Shown one piece after another: positions 1,939 to 48,472 of a DNA stretch of 64,000 bases. Under the pieces are notes generated by a model that saw only the letters and a list, made by a program, of their open reading frames with translations, was not told where the DNA came from and ran no database searches. Position 1 is the first letter of the stretch. Every line of letters begins with the position of its first letter. The position numbers and the translations under genes are program-made. The stretch spans positions 930,001 through 994,000 of the forward strand of contig CP069393.1 of the NCBI GenBank assembly GCA_016887505.1. Reading direction: 5' to 3'. This stretch comes from Clostridia bacterium (GTDB lineage Bacteria; Bacillota; TC1; UBA5767).

Positions 1939-2550
1939 CTATTTTTTTACACTTAATGACAAGCCATCACCAACAGAAAGAATGGTGCTAAAAAGGTCTT
2001 GCCGCTCAAATAATCTGCGATTAAAGTCAGACATGTTTTGTTTTGGACGTTCTCTTTGGGCATGGATTGCAAATAGTACATCATCTGCAACTAGCAATCC
2101 ACCGCTAGGCAGCTTATCCACAAGTTTATCTAGGGTTTCCTTATATGTTCTCGTTCCCCCATCCTGTAGAATCAACCCAAAAGGTCCCTCTAATTCATCC
2201 AAAAGATCTTCTGCCATACCTTGGTGTACACTTACAACATCACTCAAACCGGCCTTTTCTAGATTGATTCTAGCCTCATTCACCAATCTTTCATGGTATT
2301 CTATTGTAATTAGTTTTCCGCCAGTCTGTTTTAAAGCTGTTCCCATCCATATTGCCGCATAGCCCATAGAAGTACCGATTTCCAGTACCTTCTGGGGCCT
2401 AGTTGCTAGAATTAGAAGATGTAGCATCCGTCCTAGTTCTTTGCCAACAGATGGACACACATCATCCCGTTGCCGTTCATCTCGAAGGATATCCTCCTGG
2501 AGAGGCAACAGATGTTTCAATAGTTTTTCTACATAATTATCCTGTTGCAA
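1939..2550 (-). CDS. Class I SAM-dependent O-methyltransferase (family 3 / YrrM-like)
   Basis: A 203-residue protein with the AdoMet-binding motif I as VLEIGTSMGYAAIWM near residue 55 and the acidic motif ITIEYHE about 25 residues later. The family-3 signature LILQDGG follows near residue 125. It resembles YrrM/TrmR, which methylates 5-hydroxyuridine at the tRNA wobble position in Bacillus. That role is plausible here because a U32 peptidase-type tRNA hydroxylation gene is also in the window. The start appears to be TTG: no in-frame ATG lies upstream before a stop, and AGAAAGG precedes it at about 11 nt. A weak TTGAAT-16-TATTAT promoter could lie in the 75-nt gap after pgsA. Confidence 0.85.
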   Translation of the reverse strand: MQQDNYVEKLLKHLLPLQEDILRDERQRDDVCPSVGKELGRMLHLLILATRPQKVLEIGTSMGYAAIWMGTALKQTGGKLITIEYHERLVNEARINLEKAGLSDVVSVHQGMAEDLLDELEGPFGLILQDGGTRTYKETLDKLVDKLPSGGLLVADDVLFAIHAQRERPKQNMSDFNRRLFERQDLFSTILSVGDGLSLSVKK

Positions 2551-2625
2551 TATCTTTTCATGCCTTTCTAAAATATCCTTTAAATAATATCATCTTTTTA
2601 AAAGGATTCAAAACATTATTATTTT

Positions 2626-3153
2626 CTACTTAAATAGATGCATCGTTCCCTTAAAGTAATCATACCCTGAGAATACCGCGGCAACCAAAGAAACATAAAA
2701 AAGCACCATAGCTAACACACTGAACCATACTGGTAATACTGTTCCCCATGCTAAAAGAAGCATAATCAGCGAAACCATCTGTGTTAATGTCTTCAACTTA
2801 CCCCAAATGCTTGCAGCCATAACCAAGCCATCCTTGGCTGCCAAAACCCGAAGTCCAGTCACAGCCGTTTCTCTACCCAAGATAATAACAATTGCCCAAG
2901 CAGGTAAGATATGCGCTTGAACGAGATAAAGGAAAGCTGCCATAGTGAGCAGCTTGTCAGCAAGAGGATCCAAGAATTTACCTAGCGTAGTCACTTCGTT
3001 TCTTTTTCTAGCCAGATATCCATCAAGAAAATCTGTAAAAGAAGCTAAGGCAAATATCGTAGCTGCCACCAAATTTGGCTCGAGATGCATCAAGAGCATG
3101 AAAAGTGGAATCATAAATACTCTGGCTAACGTTAGTCTATTAGATATATTCAT
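2626..3153 (-). CDS. pgsA: CDP-diacylglycerol--glycerol-3-phosphate 3-phosphatidyltransferase
   Basis: Makes phosphatidylglycerol phosphate, the committed step to phosphatidylglycerol, in the cytoplasmic membrane. The 175-residue chain has the CDP-alcohol phosphatidyltransferase motif D-G-x2-A-R-x8-G-x3-D-x3-D, seen as DGYLARKRNEVTTLGKFLD and the following PLAD. There are about five hydrophobic segments. The start overlaps the end of rimO by 14 nt, and GGAG lies 10 nt upstream. The pair rimO-pgsA is a conserved neighbour pair in Firmicutes. Confidence 0.95.
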   Translation of the reverse strand: MNISNRLTLARVFMIPLFMLLMHLEPNLVAATIFALASFTDFLDGYLARKRNEVTTLGKFLDPLADKLLTMAAFLYLVQAHILPAWAIVIILGRETAVTGLRVLAAKDGLVMAASIWGKLKTLTQMVSLIMLLLAWGTVLPVWFSVLAMVLFYVSLVAAVFSGYDYFKGTMHLFK

Positions 3154-4465
3154 TTCTAATTTCTCCTATCAGATCATACTCTGTCGAATCTTGTACAAAA
3201 ACTTGAACAAAATCTCCAACGTATAATTTTTTATCACTCTTTACACTTATGACTCCATCTACGTCGGGTGACATAAAGCGTGTCCGTCCCATGTAAAGCT
3301 CATCTTGAACTTTTTCCTCGATTAAAACCTCGATGGTTTTCCCCTGCCAGCTAGCTAACCACTCTGAGGTTATTCTCTGTTGCATCTCCATCAATTGATT
3401 ATATCTTTCTTGCTTGATTTCTTCATCAATCTGCCCGGTCATACGAGCTGCAGGTGTGCCATCCTCTTGAGAATAAGTAAATGCGCCGACCCAATTAAGC
3501 TTTATTTCTTTCATAAATGACATCAGTTCTGCAAACTCTTCCTCGCTTTCTTGAGGAAATCCGGTAATTAGTGTGGAACGTAACGTTATGTCTGGGCATT
3601 GTTTACGAATCATCCCAATCAGGTTTCTAATCTTCTCCTGGGTCATTTTACGTCCCATTTTTCTCAAAATAGAATCACTAGCATGCTGTAGTGGAATATC
3701 TAAATAGTTACATATCTTTGCTTCATTCTGTATAGTTTTAAGTAATTCCTCGTCGATTGCATCCGGGTAAGCATACAGTATCCGTATCCAACGCAGTCCC
3801 TCAATTTGGCATAGTTCATGTAAGAGTAAACTCAGATTTGTAGTATCCTCTAAATCCTTGCCGTAGGCTGTTGTATCCTGAGCAACCAAGATGAGTTCCT
3901 TGATACCATGCTTTGCAAGTTCCTGCGCTTCTTTAAGCAAGATATCTTGTTTTCTGCTGATAAAAGGACCTTTAATCGATGGGATAGCACAATAGGTACA
4001 ACAAGTATCACAACCATCTGCAATTTTCAGATAAGCTGTCGTCCCCTTTGTAGACCTAGGATATTGCTCATCGGAATCCAGATAATCATGATGCTTCAAT
4101 TCCGATTTTTCTTCCTTCGACTCAATATAATCAAGAATATCCGTTAGGCTATATACACCAAAAAAAGCATCCACCTCCGGGATGGATTCTCTTAATTCTT
4201 TTTCATATTTCTGTGATAAGCAACCATGCACAATCACCTTTAGTCCTGTATTATCCTGTTTTGCCGCAACTACCTCTAAAATTGTCTGAATTGATTCTTT
4301 TTTTGCTGGCAGAATAAAGCCACATGTGTTAATCACAGCCCAGTCAGCATTCTTTAGTTCTTCGGTCACGCTCCATCCTTTTTGTTCAACTAATCCTTCA
4401 AAAGCAGATGAATCGGCCGTATTCTTATCGCATCCCAGTGTTCGTATATATATTCTTTTCTGCAT
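3140..4465 (-). CDS. rimO: Ribosomal protein S12 methylthiotransferase RimO
   Basis: A radical SAM methylthiotransferase that adds a methylthio group to an aspartate of ribosomal protein S12. The N-terminal UPF0004 domain supplies cysteines C12, C48 and C82 for one [4Fe-4S] cluster. The radical SAM motif CxxxCxxC is C152, C156 and C159, within GCDTCCTYC. A TRAM domain occupies roughly the last 65 residues. The 441-residue length is normal. It lies between rodZ and pgsA with overlaps or single-base gaps, so it belongs to the same transcript. RimO was chosen over MiaB because of the GCDTCCTYCAIP context and the rodZ/pgsA neighbours. Confidence 0.95.
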   Translation of the reverse strand: MQKRIYIRTLGCDKNTADSSAFEGLVEQKGWSVTEELKNADWAVINTCGFILPAKKESIQTILEVVAAKQDNTGLKVIVHGCLSQKYEKELRESIPEVDAFFGVYSLTDILDYIESKEEKSELKHHDYLDSDEQYPRSTKGTTAYLKIADGCDTCCTYCAIPSIKGPFISRKQDILLKEAQELAKHGIKELILVAQDTTAYGKDLEDTTNLSLLLHELCQIEGLRWIRILYAYPDAIDEELLKTIQNEAKICNYLDIPLQHASDSILRKMGRKMTQEKIRNLIGMIRKQCPDITLRSTLITGFPQESEEEFAELMSFMKEIKLNWVGAFTYSQEDGTPAARMTGQIDEEIKQERYNQLMEMQQRITSEWLASWQGKTIEVLIEEKVQDELYMGRTRFMSPDVDGVISVKSDKKLYVGDFVQVFVQDSTEYDLIGEIRNEYI

Positions 4466-14790: not shown

Positions 14791-15246
14791 CTAATTCTTA
14801 AACGGGTCCTTGTACTCTTTCACGCTCAGTTTATCCAACAGAATATCCTGATTTTCCTGTTCCCGTATATACTTCTTAATTGTCGCTTCATTTAGGCCTA
14901 CTGTAGTCACGTAATATCCTTGTGACCAGAAGTGTCTATTCCCGAACTTGTATTTCAGATTTGCATGTCTATCGAATATCATCAGGGCACTTTTCCCCTT
15001 TAAATATCCCATAAAGCTCGACACACTCATCTTCGGCGGAATGCTCACTAGCAAATGAACATGATCTGGCATCAGCTCGCCCTCGATAATCTCTACACCC
15101 TTGTATTTGCATAAGTCTCGAATTATCTCACGCAAACTCTCTTTATATTGATTGAAGATTATCTTTCGTCTATACTTAGGTGTAAATACGATATGATATT
15201 TGCACATCCACTTGGTGTGCGATAAGCTATTTGATTTATTAGCCAT
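14791..15246 (-). CDS. tnpA: IS200/IS605 family transposase TnpA
   Basis: A 151-residue Y1 HUH transposase that cuts and joins single-stranded DNA at the element ends. It shows KYHIVFTPKYRRK near the N terminus, the HUH metal motif DHVHLLVS, the conserved FGNRHFWSQGYYV segment, and the nucleophile tyrosine region IKKYIREQENQD. Length is standard and the frame is intact, so the element may be active. The ribosome site GGAAAGGTGATTTT lies inside a long inverted repeat (see 15247-15312). Motif-based assignment is secure. Confidence 0.95.
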   Translation of the reverse strand: MANKSNSLSHTKWMCKYHIVFTPKYRRKIIFNQYKESLREIIRDLCKYKGVEIIEGELMPDHVHLLVSIPPKMSVSSFMGYLKGKSALMIFDRHANLKYKFGNRHFWSQGYYVTTVGLNEATIKKYIREQENQDILLDKLSVKEYKDPFKN

Positions 15247-16929: not shown

Positions 16930-17871
16930 TTAAAAGAGACCTTTTTTCATCATTCCAAACACGGTAGCTGTTGTCACCAACAGGGATAATGCCACGATAA
17001 AAAAGAAACCGTAGGGATTTCCCTGCATGGGCAAGGCCACATTCATGCCATAGAAGCTTGCAATCATGGTCGGGATTGTCAGTATGATGGTAATACTCGT
17101 TAAAACTTTCATTACTATATTTAAATTGTTAGATATGATAGAAGCAAAAGCGTCCATCATACCACTTAAAATATTCGAATTGATTTCACTCATATCAATG
17201 GCCTGTTTGTTCTCGGTCAGTACATCTTCTAACAAGTCTTCATCTTCCTCGTATAGGGGAATACACTTGGTTCGAAGTATTTTTTTCATAACCAATTCAT
17301 TGCTTCTAAGCGAAGTTGTAAAATAGACCAAAGATTTTTCCATGCTGAGCAGTTTAATTAATTGTTCGTTCTTTAGAGCACCATGCAAGGAATTTTCCAA
17401 TTCCAAGGAACGGCGGTCAATTTTTTTAAGATACTTCAAAAAGTATATCGCTGTTTTATACATGATTTGTAGTGTAAATCTAGTCTTTTTCCCTGTAGAA
17501 AAAGATTTCATCCTCTTGTTCACAAAGTCCGTAATGATATCAACATCTTCTAGACAGATTGTAATAACTCGATCCTCTAGATAGATTATGCCAAGAGGTA
17601 TAGTGTCGTACCGAACGTTTTCCGGAGATTCTTCTTCCTCAACCACGGGTACATTAATCAAAATTAATGTTTGGTCGTCCTCTATATCAATTCGTGGGCG
17701 TTCCTCATCATCCATCGGTGATTCCAAAAATTCTGTAAGTGCTCCCGTTTCCTTATGCACAGTCAAAATTTCCTCTTTCGTGGGACTCACCATTTTAATC
17801 CAGCTTTTTGGTTCGCTAATCTCTACTTCTTGAACATCTTGTCCCTCTTTGGCAATATAGGCAGTAATCAT
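16930..17871 (-). CDS. corA: CorA-type magnesium/divalent cation transporter
   Basis: A pentameric Mg2+ channel of the cytoplasmic membrane. From MITAYIAKEG the protein is 313 aa: a large N-terminal cytosolic domain, a long helix, then two C-terminal membrane segments. The selectivity signature GMN is in SFYGMNVALPMQGNP after the first segment. The ATG at 17871 has AGGAGG 7 nt upstream. A longer in-frame start would lie inside the uORF and lacks a ribosome site. It is controlled by an M-box riboswitch (17991-18198) and preceded by a 29-codon ORF whose stop lies 14 nt upstream. Confidence 0.95.
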   Translation of the reverse strand: MITAYIAKEGQDVQEVEISEPKSWIKMVSPTKEEILTVHKETGALTEFLESPMDDEERPRIDIEDDQTLILINVPVVEEEESPENVRYDTIPLGIIYLEDRVITICLEDVDIITDFVNKRMKSFSTGKKTRFTLQIMYKTAIYFLKYLKKIDRRSLELENSLHGALKNEQLIKLLSMEKSLVYFTTSLRSNELVMKKILRTKCIPLYEEDEDLLEDVLTENKQAIDMSEINSNILSGMMDAFASIISNNLNIVMKVLTSITIILTIPTMIASFYGMNVALPMQGNPYGFFFIVALSLLVTTATVFGMMKKGLF

Positions 17872-17885
17872 ATTTGGCCTCCTTT

Positions 17886-17975
17886 CTAGGGCCTCAACGA
17901 CCCCCGCCGATAGCAATACCGTCGTGTATTCTTGTCATATTTTTTGTAATCCATGCATAATCGCGGGTCGTCCAT
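17886..17975 (-). CDS. 29-residue upstream ORF (possible leader peptide) between M-box and corA
   Basis: The ATG at 17975 has a strong GGGAGGTGAG site 4-5 nt upstream, only 15 nt after the riboswitch terminator T-tract. The peptide begins MDDPRLCMDYKKYDK and ends in an arginine-rich tail (RRGSLRP). It terminates at TAG, whose last bases abut the corA ribosome site. The acidic/proline start followed by basic residues recalls the E. coli mgtL leader, whose D/E/P-rich start destabilises ribosomes at low Mg2+. That parallel is an inference; a coincidental ORF remains possible. Confidence 0.6.
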   Translation of the reverse strand: MDDPRLCMDYKKYDKNTRRYCYRRGSLRP

Positions 17976-18018: not shown

Positions 18019-18198
18019 TCCCCGTGCTCTATACCGAAACTATCCTCGATCAGTTTTGGCTCAACATAACGTAGGGCAATGCCCAGCTACATTAAGCAAT
18101 ACCTTAATCCGATATTGCCTGCTGACCCTTTGGCATCTCTCGATGTTTCAGGGCAGTAGCCTCTGTTTATGTAGTAACCTCACCTAACGATGTTCACT
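17991..18198 (-). promoter_or_regulatory. M-box (ykoK leader) Mg2+ riboswitch
   Basis: The minus strand shows the conserved M-box pieces in order: GTTAGGTGAGG, GCTACTGCCC, AACATCGAGAGATGCC, AAGGGTCA, AATGTAGCTGG and a closing purine-rich part. It ends in a terminator (17991-18018). In this family, high Mg2+ folds the aptamer so that the terminator forms and transcription of the Mg2+ transporter gene stops. Position before corA fits perfectly. Confidence 0.96.
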
Positions 18199-23731: not shown

Positions 23732-24412
23732 ATGAAAACATCAAACATACCCTTGAAAAAAATTCTTAAGCTACTGATCTTGTTTAGCCTATTGATTGCA
23801 TTTTTTTCACTAACAATAAACCTCTATATACTTAAATCAACAAATAATTTAAATCATGTCCCACAATACTATAGCGCAGAAAACTCTGTAGACGCCATCA
23901 TTGTACTAGGCGCTGCTATGTATAAGAGCGGTCCTTCCTTGATGCTACGAGACCGACTCGATGCAGCCATCGTACTCTATGAGGCCGGAGTCTCCGAGCG
24001 CATACTCGTCAGTGGTGACCACGGGAAAACCAGTTACAATGAAGTACAGGGTATGCGTGAATATCTACTAAATGCCGGGATAGCAGATGAGGACATCTTT
24101 ATGGACCACGCTGGTTTTAATACATACAGCAGCATGTACAGGGCAAAAGATGTTTTCTTAGTGAAATCCGCCATCATCTCAACACAGGAATTTCATCTTC
24201 CACGCGCTGTATATCTGGCAAACCGTCTTGGACTTAAAGCAAATGGGGTAATCTGTGACCAGCATGATTACTTTTTCTTGGGCAGGAACAAGGCTAGAGA
24301 AATTCTCGCTCGTGTCAAGGATTGGCTGCAAGCAGAAATATTTCAACCTGAACCCCAATATCTCGGCGAACCCATAAGTATACATGGTTCAGGACTCGCA
24401 ACTCACGACTAA
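23732..24412 (+). CDS. YdcF/SanA-family (DUF218) membrane-anchored protein
   Basis: A 226-residue protein with one N-terminal membrane anchor (ILFSLLIAFFSLTINLYIL, about residues 15-33) and an extracellular DUF218 domain. Characteristic stretches are DAIIVLGAAMYKSGPSLMLR, RILVSGDHG and STQEFHLPRAVYLA. SanA/YdcF relatives affect envelope permeability; the biochemical activity is not settled. No clear ribosome site precedes the ATG, while a good promoter ends 6 nt before it. It is single, plus-strand, and ends at a bidirectional terminator shared with dxs. Confidence 0.85.
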   Translation: MKTSNIPLKKILKLLILFSLLIAFFSLTINLYILKSTNNLNHVPQYYSAENSVDAIIVLGAAMYKSGPSLMLRDRLDAAIVLYEAGVSERILVSGDHGKTSYNEVQGMREYLLNAGIADEDIFMDHAGFNTYSSMYRAKDVFLVKSAIISTQEFHLPRAVYLANRLGLKANGVICDQHDYFFLGRNKAREILARVKDWLQAEIFQPEPQYLGEPISIHGSGLATHD

Positions 24413-24420
24413 ATAACTTC

Positions 24421-24450
24421 AAAAAAAGGTCTCACATTGTGAGGCCTTTT
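24421..24450. terminator. Bidirectional terminator between the YdcF-like gene and dxs
   Basis: A stem GGTCTCAC/GTGAGGCC flanked by A6 on one side and T5 on the other, serving both strands. It overlaps the last codons and the TGA of dxs. Confidence 0.85.
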
Positions 24451-26288
24451 TGCATCTTTCTACAGGTTTTGACAACATTTGCATCGTCTATACCAAATTT
24501 TTTTCTAAGATCTTCGGTTAAACCATGTTCAATGAATTCATCTGGCAGGGCTAAAATTTGGACCGGCAAGACACAATTCACGATTTGCAATATGCTTGCA
24601 CCCAAACCATTTTCCCTACAATTTTCCTCAACTACTAAGATTGCTTTGTAATTTTTTAAGATTCTAGCAAAGGCGATTTCCGGAAATGGCTTAGCCCTTC
24701 TGACTCCCATCAAGGCTACTTCTATTCCTTGATTTTTTAGCTCCTGTTTAGCTTTAATGCATGTCATCATCGAATTACTAGCCGAGACAATCAATATATC
24801 TCCTTCTTTTCCAATCCATGTAAATTCATCCTCGATGATTTTATGCTCGCTAATCTTCGGCAGCACAACATCCCTTGGGTAACGAATCATAACTGGGCCA
24901 CCATTATTTAATGCCTCTGCCATCATAAGTTCCATATCTTCTTCATCACATGGCATAAGAATCTCTAGATTTGGCACTGACTTGAATATACCAAAATCCA
25001 TGATGCCTTGATGCGTTTCGCCATCTTGTCCTACCAAACCTGACCTATCGACACAGAAAACAACCGGAAGTTTCTGCATGCATACATCATGAATCACCTG
25101 ATCGACTGCCCGTTGCATAAATGTAGCATAGATGGCAACAACCGGCTTCAAGCCTGCCGTGGCAAGTCCAGCTGCAAATGTCACAGCATGCTGTTCTGCA
25201 ATTGCAGTATCAAAAAAACGTTCAGGATATTTTTTTTGAAAAGCACTCATTCCTGTGCCTTTTGCCATTGCTGCTGTTATAGCAACAATTTCCTGATTAT
25301 GTTCTGCCTGTTTTAGCAACTGCTCTGAAAAGCTTTGGGTAAATGTTTTCCGGTTTTTGGGTTCCATCTTACCATCTTCGATATGAAAGGCCCCTACCCC
25401 ATGGAATTTCTCAGGATTTTTCACGGCCGGAGTATAGCCACGCCCTTTTTGGGTGACTACGTGTAGCAATACCGGTCCCTCGAGGGATTTAATGCGTTCC
25501 AAATGATCTATTAACGCTCTGATATCATGTCCATCAATAGGTCCTAGATACGTAAAACCGAGTTCCTCAAACAAGATTCCAGATATGAAAAAATACTTAA
25601 GTCCATCCTTTAGGCGCTCGATTCCATGTCTCACAGGCTTTCCAATAACAGGAATTTTTTCAATCCAACTAGCAACCCCTCGCTTTGTAGATAAATACAT
25701 AGAGCCAGTTCTAGCGCGGACTAAATAATTGGAAAGTGCACCAACATTATTGTCAATCGACATCTCATTGTCATTCAAAATCACCAAAAAGTTAGTATTC
25801 TTATGGCCTGCATGGTTGATAGCCTCAAATGCCATACCACCCGTCAGAGCACCATCTCCGATTACCGCTGTTACGTTTTGGTCTATCCCTTTAATTCGAT
25901 TCGCTTCAGCAATCCCCATCGCTGCAGATATAGAGGTCGCACTATGTCCAGTCTCGAATATATCGTGCTCAGACTCGCAACGCTTTGGAAATCCCGAAAG
26001 ACCTCCCAACTGTCGCAAAGTGCAAAATTGATCTTTTCTACCCGTAATCAGCTTATGGGCATAGCTCTGATGACCAACGTCCCAAATCACTTGATCCTTC
26101 GGAGAGGAGAAAACATAATGCCACGCAAGGGTTATCTCCACTGTCCCTAAACTAGATGCTAAGTGTCCGCCCGTCTTAGAAACAGAAAAAATGATTTCTT
26201 GCCTGATTTCCTCCGCCAATTGTTCCAGTTGCGTAATATTTAATTTTCGTAACTGTTCAGGTCCATCTATCGTTTCTAGGATGCTCAT
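24432..26288 (-). CDS. dxs: 1-Deoxy-D-xylulose-5-phosphate synthase
   Basis: Joins pyruvate and glyceraldehyde 3-phosphate to start the non-mevalonate isoprenoid pathway, with thiamine diphosphate. The ThDP/Mg motif is GDGALTGGMAFEAINHAG ending in a NDNEMSID segment. The transketolase pyrimidine domain has AIAEQHAVTFAAGLA with the catalytic glutamate. Length 618 aa is typical. The start ATG comes immediately after the oapA stop and has AGAGGAAACG upstream. With ispA in the same operon, it supplies isoprenoid precursors. Confidence 0.97.
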   Translation of the reverse strand: MSILETIDGPEQLRKLNITQLEQLAEEIRQEIIFSVSKTGGHLASSLGTVEITLAWHYVFSSPKDQVIWDVGHQSYAHKLITGRKDQFCTLRQLGGLSGFPKRCESEHDIFETGHSATSISAAMGIAEANRIKGIDQNVTAVIGDGALTGGMAFEAINHAGHKNTNFLVILNDNEMSIDNNVGALSNYLVRARTGSMYLSTKRGVASWIEKIPVIGKPVRHGIERLKDGLKYFFISGILFEELGFTYLGPIDGHDIRALIDHLERIKSLEGPVLLHVVTQKGRGYTPAVKNPEKFHGVGAFHIEDGKMEPKNRKTFTQSFSEQLLKQAEHNQEIVAITAAMAKGTGMSAFQKKYPERFFDTAIAEQHAVTFAAGLATAGLKPVVAIYATFMQRAVDQVIHDVCMQKLPVVFCVDRSGLVGQDGETHQGIMDFGIFKSVPNLEILMPCDEEDMELMMAEALNNGGPVMIRYPRDVVLPKISEHKIIEDEFTWIGKEGDILIVSASNSMMTCIKAKQELKNQGIEVALMGVRRAKPFPEIAFARILKNYKAILVVEENCRENGLGASILQIVNCVLPVQILALPDEFIEHGLTEDLRKKFGIDDANVVKTCRKMQKGLTM

Positions 26289-26846
26289 TTATCGTTTCCT
26301 CTTAATCGTCACATCAACTTTAAATTTAGCCATGATACGCGCCACAATATGTATAATTTTATTGGCTTGGTTAATCGCATAGTTCTTACCCAAAGCTTTT
26401 CCACCTACAGTAAGTCCCGCTATGCAACTGGTGATAATAATCTCCACAAAAATATCATCTGTGTTGGACTTAGCAATTAGCAAAGCAAGCCCTGCACCCA
26501 GAGCTCCACTTATTGCTGAGCTCACATCTCCAACCACATCATTACATATATTGGCTACCCTGTCTGCATTACGGACCAAATAGGCACCTTGTGCCCCCCC
26601 AGGAACCCGTTTAGCAGCCATAGCATGGAAAACATCTTCATCGGCAGCCGTGACGGCTGTGCCTACTAGGTCGAAAATAATTCCAGAAATAACAATCAGC
26701 AGTAGAATCACGGTCGCTGCCAAAACAGATGACAGCTTATCCATGACGCCCTTGCTGATTATACTAACTGTAAGCGCAAGAAAAAAAGCTCCTACGCCCA
26801 CTATGATTGCTCTTCTAATTATTTTTGTTCTCGGTTCTCTCGCCAT
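26289..26846 (-). CDS. oapA: OLE RNA-associated membrane protein OapA
   Basis: OapA binds OLE RNA and localises it to the membrane. The 185-residue protein has four hydrophobic segments (about residues 13-32, 41-61, 110-127, 132-150), a very basic C terminus (FKVDVTIKRKR), and a DxxxD motif at D103 and D107 (NDVVGDVSS), as described for the family. It lies just downstream of the OLE RNA and upstream of dxs, the known syntenic position. The ATG at 26846 has AAAGGAAAT upstream. Another ATG seven codons earlier has its AGGA only 1 nt away, so it is unlikely to be used. Confidence 0.93.
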   Translation of the reverse strand: MAREPRTKIIRRAIIVGVGAFFLALTVSIISKGVMDKLSSVLAATVILLLIVISGIIFDLVGTAVTAADEDVFHAMAAKRVPGGAQGAYLVRNADRVANICNDVVGDVSSAISGALGAGLALLIAKSNTDDIFVEIIITSCIAGLTVGGKALGKNYAINQANKIIHIVARIMAKFKVDVTIKRKR

Positions 26847-27200
26847 ACTATTTCCTTTAATTGACATTCCTTCGTATCGTTTCGAAGAATTTTCAGTTGG
26901 TGAAAGGCAGAGTCATTTCAAATACCCGTAAACCGACAAAGGCCGGAAGCCTATCCTTAGGCATGGTCACAACAAATTAGGCAAGCAGACTGCTACCCTA
27001 GCAATATGGATGGTTAATTCTGTTCCTGATTATGTTGTCAATATACTTTTCTTCGAAAGATTACGATATGCGCTATCAAAATATGTCTTTATGTTATCTT
27101 GAAATAAATACATATATATCAGTCTATGCCATCGTAAGAAGAATCGACGCACTCTACTCATCACTCTTTCTTACATAGCAAGGATAAAGCAATAATAAAA
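26847..27200 (-). other. Non-coding stretch between OLE RNA and oapA with hairpins and a possible promoter
   Basis: About 350 nt without a supported gene. A bulged stem joins 27124-27130 and 27131-27140 with 27168-27178. TTGACA lies at 27036-27041 with an ATTAAC box 17 nt on. Two adjacent small hairpins follow on the minus strand, GCCTA-AGGA-TAGGC and CCGGC-CTTT-GTCGG (about 26930-26965). A third stem (CTTCG/CGAAG, about 26868-26888) precedes the oapA ribosome site. A 43-codon basic ORF (27030-27161) has a weak ribosome site and is not called. Confidence 0.5.
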
Positions 27201-27774
27201 TTGGTGGCTGTCGACGCAGTAAACTTTACGGCTTAGGTCCAGTTGGATTTCCCCTTGTCCTACAGCCCGTCACCGTGGCTGTGGTTTCCCATTAAAGAAC
27301 AATCTGATGCGTCGCCGGCATCATCACTAGATCGCCACTTAGCTCGTACTTTAATCCTACGTCAACAGTCAGTCTAGAAGTTTTCCTTGACAGTCATACT
27401 AATTCCTAGCCTCTTTTGCAACTGAAGTTTCATCGTATTTGCAACGCCTACGGCCGTAGACAGCTACAAACCTTACTAGACCCCTCTCCAGCCACTCAAG
27501 GCAGGCTACTCTGCAGCAAGCTTTATGCTACCAACTGCAGGTTTCTCCCCCAAGTCATATCCTGGCTCTTAAACCAGGTCACAAAAATGGGCCTCCACGA
27601 AGGTAGGGTCATCGCCCGCATGCCCTTGCGGATCGCCCCAGCCTTCTTAACCTCCACCATATGCCCTCGCGGTGCATCGAAAGCAAGTGCCAGAGACTTC
27701 ATCGCTGTGCCCGTGACGGATTTTTAGGCCCGCCTTCAAAATCAATATGCCTGACTAGAATACTGCGCCACCAA
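27201..27774 (-). ncRNA. ole: OLE RNA (ornate, large, extremophilic RNA)
   Basis: A noncoding RNA, usually about 600 nt, of anaerobic and extremophilic Firmicutes. It forms a membrane ribonucleoprotein with OapA and other proteins and aids growth under stress such as ethanol, cold or Mg2+ imbalance. The gap between ispA and oapA is G/C-richer than flanking spacers, is stop-rich in all frames, and contains many local palindromes (GACCTGG/CCAGG types). A long-range stem closes the element: TTGGTGGC (27767-27774) pairs with GCCACCAA (27201-27208), and GCAGTA (27761-27766) pairs with TACTGC (27216-27221). This encloses about 575 nt. It is transcribed with the folD-ispA-dxs operon. Exact ends are estimates. 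Confidence 0.9.
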
Positions 27775-27812
27775 ATCACATTATACAGCACCGACCTTAT
27801 TGTTAGCAAATA

Positions 27813-28700
27813 CTAATAGAGTCTGTGTAGTATGAAATCACATAATCCAATAAAAAAGCTGGTATCGCAACCGTCTAGATTTTCAAGTTCCGCTCTTGCC
27901 ATGTCCATTTCGTGCTTTGCTCGTTCCTTGGCCGCTTCTAAGCCTAGTAAGGCTGGGTAAGTCATCTTTCCTAAGGCTAGATCGGAACCAACAGGTTTAC
28001 CCAGTATTTCTTCTACGCCTTCTACGTCCAATATATCATCCGTGATTTGGAATGATAGTCCCAAATGTATCGCATACCGCTCTAAATATTCCATTGTTCG
28101 GATATTGGCACCAGCTAATCTAGCTCCGCACAGCACAGCTACCCGAATTAAATCAGCCGTTTTATGGGTGTGAATATACGATAAAACATCTTCACTGGGC
28201 TGTTTTTCCTCAGAAAGAATATCCAATACCTGACCGCCTATAACTCCTTTTGGCCCTACAGCTTCGGCAATATCTTGCATCACGGCAATTTTGGTAGCTG
28301 CAGGTATCCCATCATCGTCTCTGCAAATTAAAGAAAATGCTGCAAATACCAGTGCATCGCCAGCCAGCACTGCAATATCTTCACCAAAAACTTTGTGACA
28401 GGTAGGGATGCCTCGTCTAAAATCATCATCATCCATGCAAGGAAGATCGTCATGGATGAGGGTGAAAGTATGAATCATCTCAATGGCCAAAGCAACATTG
28501 CGTCCTTGGTGCAAATCAGCACCCAGCATTTTCATCGTTTCCAAGAGTAAAATCGGTCTCAGGCGTTTCCCGCCAGCCAAAAGGCTATGTTCCATAGCAG
28601 AGCCTAGGATCTCCACTTTGGGGTCCACCTCCGGTATAGCAGCCTTAAGCCAAGAATCAAATAACTCTTTTCTTTCCGTTATAAGCCCGTTTATATCCAT
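27813..28700 (-). CDS. ispA: Polyprenyl (farnesyl/geranyl) diphosphate synthase
   Basis: Condenses IPP with allylic diphosphates. The 295-residue protein has the first Asp-rich motif D84-D85-x4-D90 (HDDLPCMDDDD), the second motif QITDDILD, and the GGKRLRP substrate-binding segment at about 43-49. The ATG at 28700 is 1 nt after the xseB stop and has GGAGGAGAAG upstream. A longer in-frame start would lie inside xseB. The stop is 38 nt before the 5' stem of OLE RNA, the standard synteny xseA-xseB-ispA-OLE. Confidence 0.95.
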   Translation of the reverse strand: MDINGLITERKELFDSWLKAAIPEVDPKVEILGSAMEHSLLAGGKRLRPILLLETMKMLGADLHQGRNVALAIEMIHTFTLIHDDLPCMDDDDFRRGIPTCHKVFGEDIAVLAGDALVFAAFSLICRDDDGIPAATKIAVMQDIAEAVGPKGVIGGQVLDILSEEKQPSEDVLSYIHTHKTADLIRVAVLCGARLAGANIRTMEYLERYAIHLGLSFQITDDILDVEGVEEILGKPVGSDLALGKMTYPALLGLEAAKERAKHEMDMARAELENLDGCDTSFFIGLCDFILHRLY

Positions 28701-28701
28701 T

Positions 28702-28935
28702 TTAGACTTCTTCTCCTCCGATAGTCTCCGTCGATATTGTCCCATTCTTTTCCTTTAGCAAAACCAACTGTTCTTCAGCACCATCCAGGCGTTCTCGGCA
28801 AGCTGCAAGCAATTCTACTGCTTTTTCATAAGTGGAAATAGCAGCCTCTAGAGTAAGTGCGCCCTGCTCCAAACTTTTGGTCTTATCTTCTAGTTCTTCC
28901 AACATTTCTTCAAACGCTATTTTTTCTTTTTTCAC
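28702..28935 (-). CDS. xseB: Exodeoxyribonuclease VII small subunit
   Basis: The small helical subunit of the XseA/XseB nuclease. From the GTG at 28935 the protein is 77 aa. It has the family pattern FEEMLEELEDKTKSLEQG and LEAAISTYEKAVELLAACR. AAGGAGGAAG lies upstream, and the GTGA overlaps the xseA stop, so it is translationally coupled. A longer ATG start inside xseA would add about 20 unlike residues and is unlikely. Confidence 0.93.
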   Translation of the reverse strand: MKKEKIAFEEMLEELEDKTKSLEQGALTLEAAISTYEKAVELLAACRERLDGAEEQLVLLKEKNGTISTETIGGEEV

Positions 28936-48299: not shown

Positions 48300-48472
48300 A
48301 AAAAATCCCACTAGTGGTTACTGCTTGTTTAAACCCTGCGCAGCAGGTGGGTATCCTGTTTGCTATTTCTGTATTCCGATTTAACCGGCTGCACATACAT
48401 AGCAAAACTCCGAATTCCCAAGGTAATAGTGTCGGTTTAAATATCACAGCACCATCTCTAGCAGGAAATGGT
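48300..48472 (-). ncRNA. ssrS: Probable 6S RNA
   Basis: A gene-free stretch folds as a rod typical of 6S RNA, the RNA mimic of an open promoter that binds sigma-A RNA polymerase. The outer stem pairs CTAG...TGGTGCTG...TTTAAACC (48434-48461) with GGTTTAAA...CAGTAACCA...CTAG (48311-48335). The distal arm pairs TTTGCTAT with ATAGCAAA (48359-48366, 48399-48406). Between them is an open bubble, with a small CCTGC-TGC-GCAGG hairpin on its 3' side, a hallmark of the class. It ends in T7. Length about 170 nt fits. The assignment is by structure; I could not compare it with a covariance model. The rest of the 48.25-48.56 kb gap holds only promoter-like A/T-rich DNA. Confidence 0.65.

Follow-up and report, generated by a model that had tools for sequence, protein, structure and literature searches.

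OLE is one of the largest structured RNAs in bacteria for which no biochemical function is known. Work in Halalkalibacterium halodurans and Clostridium acetobutylicum has described its anchoring in the membrane, its dimerisation, its binding of proteins and a role connected with Mg2+, cold and alcohol (PMC9723947, PMC12265935, PMC12286853). Across genomes, OLE and the Mg2+ exporter MpfA are anticorrelated, and rare defective OLE genes have been mentioned (PMC11332333). The same study described OLE variant 1 and variant 2 RNAs, from the TANB77 and RF39 clades, in which P7-P9 are short or missing (PMC11332333).

The window analysed here is a 64,000-nt stretch of a Clostridia bacterium genome (contig CP069393.1), in which the initial annotation had proposed an OLE locus. 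The locus shares with the systems of H. halodurans and C. acetobutylicum the length and conserved nucleotides of the RNA, what appears to be a promoter of its own, the order ole then oapA beside isoprenoid genes, the DxxxD motif of OapA and genome-encoded OapB, OapC and bS21 (candidates here). It differs from both in an insert of ~335 nt between ole and oapA and in a host that lacks Spo0A and carries one MpfA, and from H. halodurans in what looks like an imperfect anti-Shine-Dalgarno mimic. MpfA, CorB and CorC combine CNNM, CBS and CorC domains; OapA resembles the CNNM membrane domain, weakly in sequence and in its predicted fold, but is without a CBS or CorC domain, carries DxxxD and travels with OLE RNA. 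Variants 1 and 2 belong to the same RNA class as the window's RNA, which is full length.

The OLE RNA and its closing helix

The Rfam covariance model RF01071 matches the window at 27188-27787 over the entire span of the model (1-616 of 616) with 436 bits (E 8e-126), far above the curated gathering score of 50 bits, and this bears out the OLE RNA proposed for the locus. A covariance search found one copy in the 2.56-Mb genome (27188-27787), and none of 14 control genomes had an OLE match. It is virtually certain that the window's RNA is a full-length member of the OLE class. The mature RNA likely runs from ~27776 to ~27196 on the minus strand, a length of ~580 nt. The gene-free block between ispA (27813-28745) and oapA had been described as rich in local palindromes, and it is indeed highly structured: 27196-27776 folded alone exceeded dinucleotide shuffles in stability by 3.6 sd, and 0/100 shuffles were as stable. 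The features of the RNA are as follows.

27188-27787, minus strand: ole, the OLE RNA gene (RF01071, full length; cmscan 436 bits, E 8e-126)
27767-27774, minus strand: 5' strand of closing helix P1 (TTGGTGGC), covarying with 27201-27208 over 38 loci
27201-27208, minus strand: 3' strand of closing helix P1 (GCCACCAA), covarying with 27767-27774 over 38 loci
27357-27367, minus strand: 5' strand of a long-range stem in the 3' domain (Rfam consensus), pairing with 27209-27219
27209-27219, minus strand: 3' strand of the same stem, pairing with 27357-27367
27304-27324 and 27262-27282 (within 27262-27324), minus strand: two GGNGAC-loop hairpins in the covariance-model alignment

Strongly conserved consensus positions were matched at 220/249, and 135 of the 159 base pairs in the model are canonical in the window's RNA. 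In the covariance-model alignment both kink-turn elements, CGAUGAAG and CGUGGAG, are intact and form a putative OapC site. The region with the two GGNGAC-loop hairpins would be the counterpart of P12.2/P13, with helix names matched by position; in the described system this is the region that holds the OapB site (PMC9723947). Finally, the P6 strand, which in H. halodurans is a perfect CCUCCU (the bS21 site and anti-Shine-Dalgarno mimic), reads CCUACCUUC in the window.

The bases of P1 are unpaired in the RF01071 model. Their mean pairing over 38 distinct loci was 9.26/10, whereas 500 arm shuffles averaged 7.9 and reached at most 8.24; in this control arms were swapped between species and relatedness was not kept. 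Both arms change together, from TTGGTGGC/GCCACCAA here to GGGATGGT/ACCATCCC in locus L005 and ATGTGAC/GTCACAT in L015. P1 is not put forward as new to OLE. A 14-bp stem had been proposed to close the RNA, and the covariation supports its outer 8 bp (27774-27767 with 27208-27201). The inner 5 bp (GCAGT/ACTGC) and the GTCGACA bulge had to be given up: those bases belong to an 11-bp stem that pairs 27367-27357 with 27219-27209 in the Rfam consensus and is canonical at 11/11 pairs; over the same 38 loci the inner stem averaged 2.7/5 pairs and was unconserved.

Promoter, spacer insert and gene neighbourhood

The genes folD, fchA, xseA, ispA, ole, oapA and dxs lie on one strand, and the dxs ATG directly follows the oapA stop codon. 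Gene order and strand suggest that ole could be co-transcribed with these neighbours. The elements around ole are listed here.

27813-28745, minus strand: ispA, farnesyl diphosphate synthase, the upstream neighbour (NF045485, 340 bits)
27780-27809, minus strand: putative ole promoter TTGCTA-18-TATAAT from a promoter scan, its -10 box immediately before P1
26862-27197, minus strand: spacer insert of ~335 nt between ole and oapA, absent from the nearest relatives
26289-26846, minus strand: oapA, 185 aa, start placed by alignment; a longer ORF to 26867 is less likely
24432-26288, minus strand: dxs, the downstream neighbour (TIGR00204, 744 bits)
18035-18198, minus strand: M-box Mg2+ riboswitch, upstream of corA
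16930-17916, minus strand: corA Mg2+ transporter, after the M-box

A TATAAT is found at the matching place in L002, where it is identical, and one also occurs in L003; most other loci have a -10 box a few bases upstream of P1. The conservation of this motif suggests that OLE has its own promoter besides its position in the operon, and the OLE gene of H. halodurans is reported to have one as well (PMC9723947). The start of oapA had been placed at 26867, and an alignment with congeners and other members of the family moves it to 26846, which is most likely the true start as judged from conservation: this ATG and its AAAGGA ribosome site are kept in L002 and L003 and are similar in L047.

The spacer, which had been remarked on as long, measures 351 nt from P1 to the conserved oapA ATG. 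A distance of 16-18 nt separates P1 from the oapA start in the nearest relatives (same genus and family), and the spacer is long here because it contains the ~335-nt insert that these relatives lack. The insert occurs in this species only and in a single copy. It was not found in the other genomes of the order, had zero matches among phages and plasmids, lacks strong direct repeats and has a single inverted repeat, imperfect and 18 nt long, on which grounds a mobile element or repeat was rejected. A structured RNA was likewise rejected, as Rfam yielded nothing up to E 1 and the fold was not unusual against shuffles (z -0.75), and so was a coding gene, since the longest minus-strand ORF within the insert has 44 aa. 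A scan for coding-strand terminators found none within the insert or between OLE and oapA. Spacers between P1 and oapA range overall from 16 to 604 nt, with 208-604 nt at other intact loci, and the insert therefore need not harm function.

The M-box and corA share the strand of ole and lie ~9 kb downstream of it, and the order ole-oapA-dxs-tlyA-nadK-argR-recN-M-box-corA is kept in two congeners, that is, in three species in all. This retention of an M-box-corA unit nearby fits the reported link between OLE and Mg2+. ArgR has been mentioned, as an unpublished result, as an OLE partner (PMC12265935). Between dxs and tlyA, a SanA-like DUF218 gene (23732-24412) is encoded on the opposite strand and is kept in congeners; it was not detected between these two genes in the second family. 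Elsewhere in the window a 6S RNA was found at 48301-48470 (minus strand, 61.9 bits), and an ORF at 14791-15246 (minus strand) resembles, by eye, a REP/IS200-type transposase.

OapA, candidate partners and the proposed particle

The DxxxD motif that had been noticed in the downstream protein corresponds to D103/D107 of OapA and is identical in 32/32 aligned sequences. Changes in its H. halodurans counterparts, D100/D104, give severe phenotypes (PMC9723947). The CNNM family was matched weakly by 13 of the 32 OapA sequences, with a best E value of 2e-6, and the match of the window's OapA was weak. Its predicted model is all-helical and of moderate confidence (pLDDT 79). When the model was compared with solved structures, the first five matches were CNNM/CorB/CorC Mg2+ transporters, at E 0.05 and worse and a TM of ~0.5; a sequence-profile search against solved structures gave no match. 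These fold matches agree with an earlier study in which OapA was reported as CNNM-like and 7M1U was found as a match (PMC11332333). A better fit to some other family, which would have spoken against OapA, was looked for, and none beat CNNM. OapA is thus predicted to be a small helical membrane protein with a CNNM-like fold and without CBS or CorC domains. The possibility that it is itself an MpfA was rejected, given its weak CNNM match and the true MpfA encoded elsewhere in the genome, a single full CNNM-CBS-CorC protein (L057:1477-2808, G000:C1:1197727). Next to this MpfA gene, in divergent orientation, is an ORF that resembles P-type cation ATPases.

A search for oapB and oapC elsewhere in the genome, as the initial annotation had advised, produced a candidate for each. 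The OapB candidate lies in the map-infA gap (L058:8364-8660); its best solved-structure match is OapB itself, an RNA-binding protein of the KOW type (7k9b, E 3.5e-5, distant), and the Pfam KOW domain did not match it. In the rpoC-rpsL gap, a candidate OapC/YbxF, an L7Ae-type kink-turn protein, matches YbxF at E 3e-14. The genome also encodes bS21.

By analogy with the described systems, the OLE RNA would be transcribed from its own promoter and also by transcripts that run on from ispA. It would then dimerise and be anchored in the membrane by OapA, while its kink-turn would bind OapC and its 3' hairpins OapB. The resulting particle may tune how the cell deals with divalent metal (Mg2+) and how it grows under stress, as an RNA-and-protein equivalent of MpfA, the exporter made of protein alone; in this non-sporulating organism it would operate alongside CorA import under M-box control and one MpfA. 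It is quite likely that a standard OLE ribonucleoprotein, with a full-length RNA, is encoded at this locus. The metal and stress mechanism, taken for the window's own OLE, has about an even chance of being right; the direct support in this analysis consists of anatomy and conservation.

Retention and loss among relatives, and alternative readings

Of 45 related loci, 43 have OLE upstream of oapA; in the remaining two a contig end truncates the sequence. The records holding ole-oapA at L011 and L044 are titled Armatimonadetes and Deltaproteobacteria. These placements outside Bacillota are probably binning errors or transfer, as has been suggested for other such OLE matches (PMC11332333). Spo0A_C was absent from all ten genomes of the order (10/10), the window's own and nine relatives, with a positive B. 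subtilis control, in line with the non-sporulating host suspected initially. OLE therefore persists here without sporulation.

Within the order, the first family, to which the window's genome belongs, has an intact ole-oapA and one MpfA in 4/4 genomes. OLE and MpfA thus coexist there and are not simple substitutes. In the second, sister family, ole-oapA is intact in one of six genomes (G003). A decayed pair is still in place before dxs in G006 (L101, G006:C15:389000-396000, 2343-3311): the RNA, unlike both described OLE variants, is missing model positions 54-190 (P2-P6), its ends and 3' half being kept, and the oapA remnant has stops and lacks its N-terminal half. Conserved positions in the 3' half were matched at 122/143 in G006, compared with 129/144 in the intact G003. 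The P2-P6 deletion was read from continuous sequence before an N gap; an apparent 206-nt insert in the G006 OLE was rejected as an assembly join, a run of ~100 N between two copies of one stretch. In G005, a C-terminal oapA remnant alone precedes dxs (L102, G005:C22, 2761-2910) and OLE was not detectable, and in G001, G002 and G004 neither ole nor oapA was found. MpfA was found in four of the five sister-family genomes without intact ole-oapA (G001, G002, G005 and G006) and was not found in G003 or G004, of which G004 is 94% complete. The three MpfA proteins of g4 resemble one another at 79-87% and those of the first family at only ~34%. This pattern is in line with the anticorrelation reported for OLE and MpfA (PMC11332333), although ten genomes, some of them incomplete (G003 79%, G005 76%), are a lead and not a test. 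A doubtful but conceivable extension is that the order offers a natural experiment in OLE loss, running within one genus from an intact ole-oapA through an RNA without P2-P6 and a broken oapA to nothing, with a distinct MpfA in most of the losers; the remaining 3' half in G006 might still be used without OapA.

The joint loss of OLE and OapA in relatives counts in favour of the ribonucleoprotein reading, and the insert, which could weaken the coupling of ole and oapA, counts against it, as do the weak CNNM fold match, the distant OapB match, the coexistence of OLE with one MpfA in the first family and the departure of the P6 strand from CCUCCU. The locus might be regarded as one in early decay, with oapA cut off from ole by the ~335-nt insert at the start of a loss like that in the sister family. 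The insert is absent from the nearest relatives and without recognisable function, and ole-oapA does decay in that family. However, the RNA is intact at 220/249 conserved positions, oapA is intact with its invariant residues and ribosome site, the insert lacks a coding-strand terminator, and spacers of 208-604 nt occur at other intact loci, so that early decay appears improbable. That the long spacer is an artefact of assembly or a chimera is suggested by an insert unmatched in every collection searched, but the assembly consists of one contig, is 99.2% complete and has no N runs, and synteny on both sides is as in congeners; this explanation is exceedingly improbable.

It is also decidedly improbable that OLE acts mainly in cis, as an Mg2+-sensing leader of oapA and dxs, and not as a trans-acting ribonucleoprotein. 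Spacers of 16-604 nt, and an insert that moves oapA far off in the window, would not easily be tolerated by a cis switch, and a terminator between the RNA and oapA was not found. Furthermore, the OLE of H. halodurans is a separate, abundant, protein-bound and membrane-located RNA (PMC9723947, PMC12265935). In favour of the cis reading, the RNA forms part of the oapA 5' leader at nearly all loci, it ends 16-18 nt before the oapA start in the nearest relatives, and Mg2+ genes lie nearby.

Read as an OLE ribonucleoprotein locus, the region appears from its sequence to be a complete, ordinary and working member of the OLE RNA-oapA family, and only the insert and the decaying relatives go beyond ordinary class membership. 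It provides a clean, complete case of OLE in an organism without Spo0A, and the role of OLE there cannot depend on sporulation. The close relatives in which ole-oapA is decaying or lost, together with their MpfA genes, form a small set for testing whether MpfA stands in for the OLE particle.
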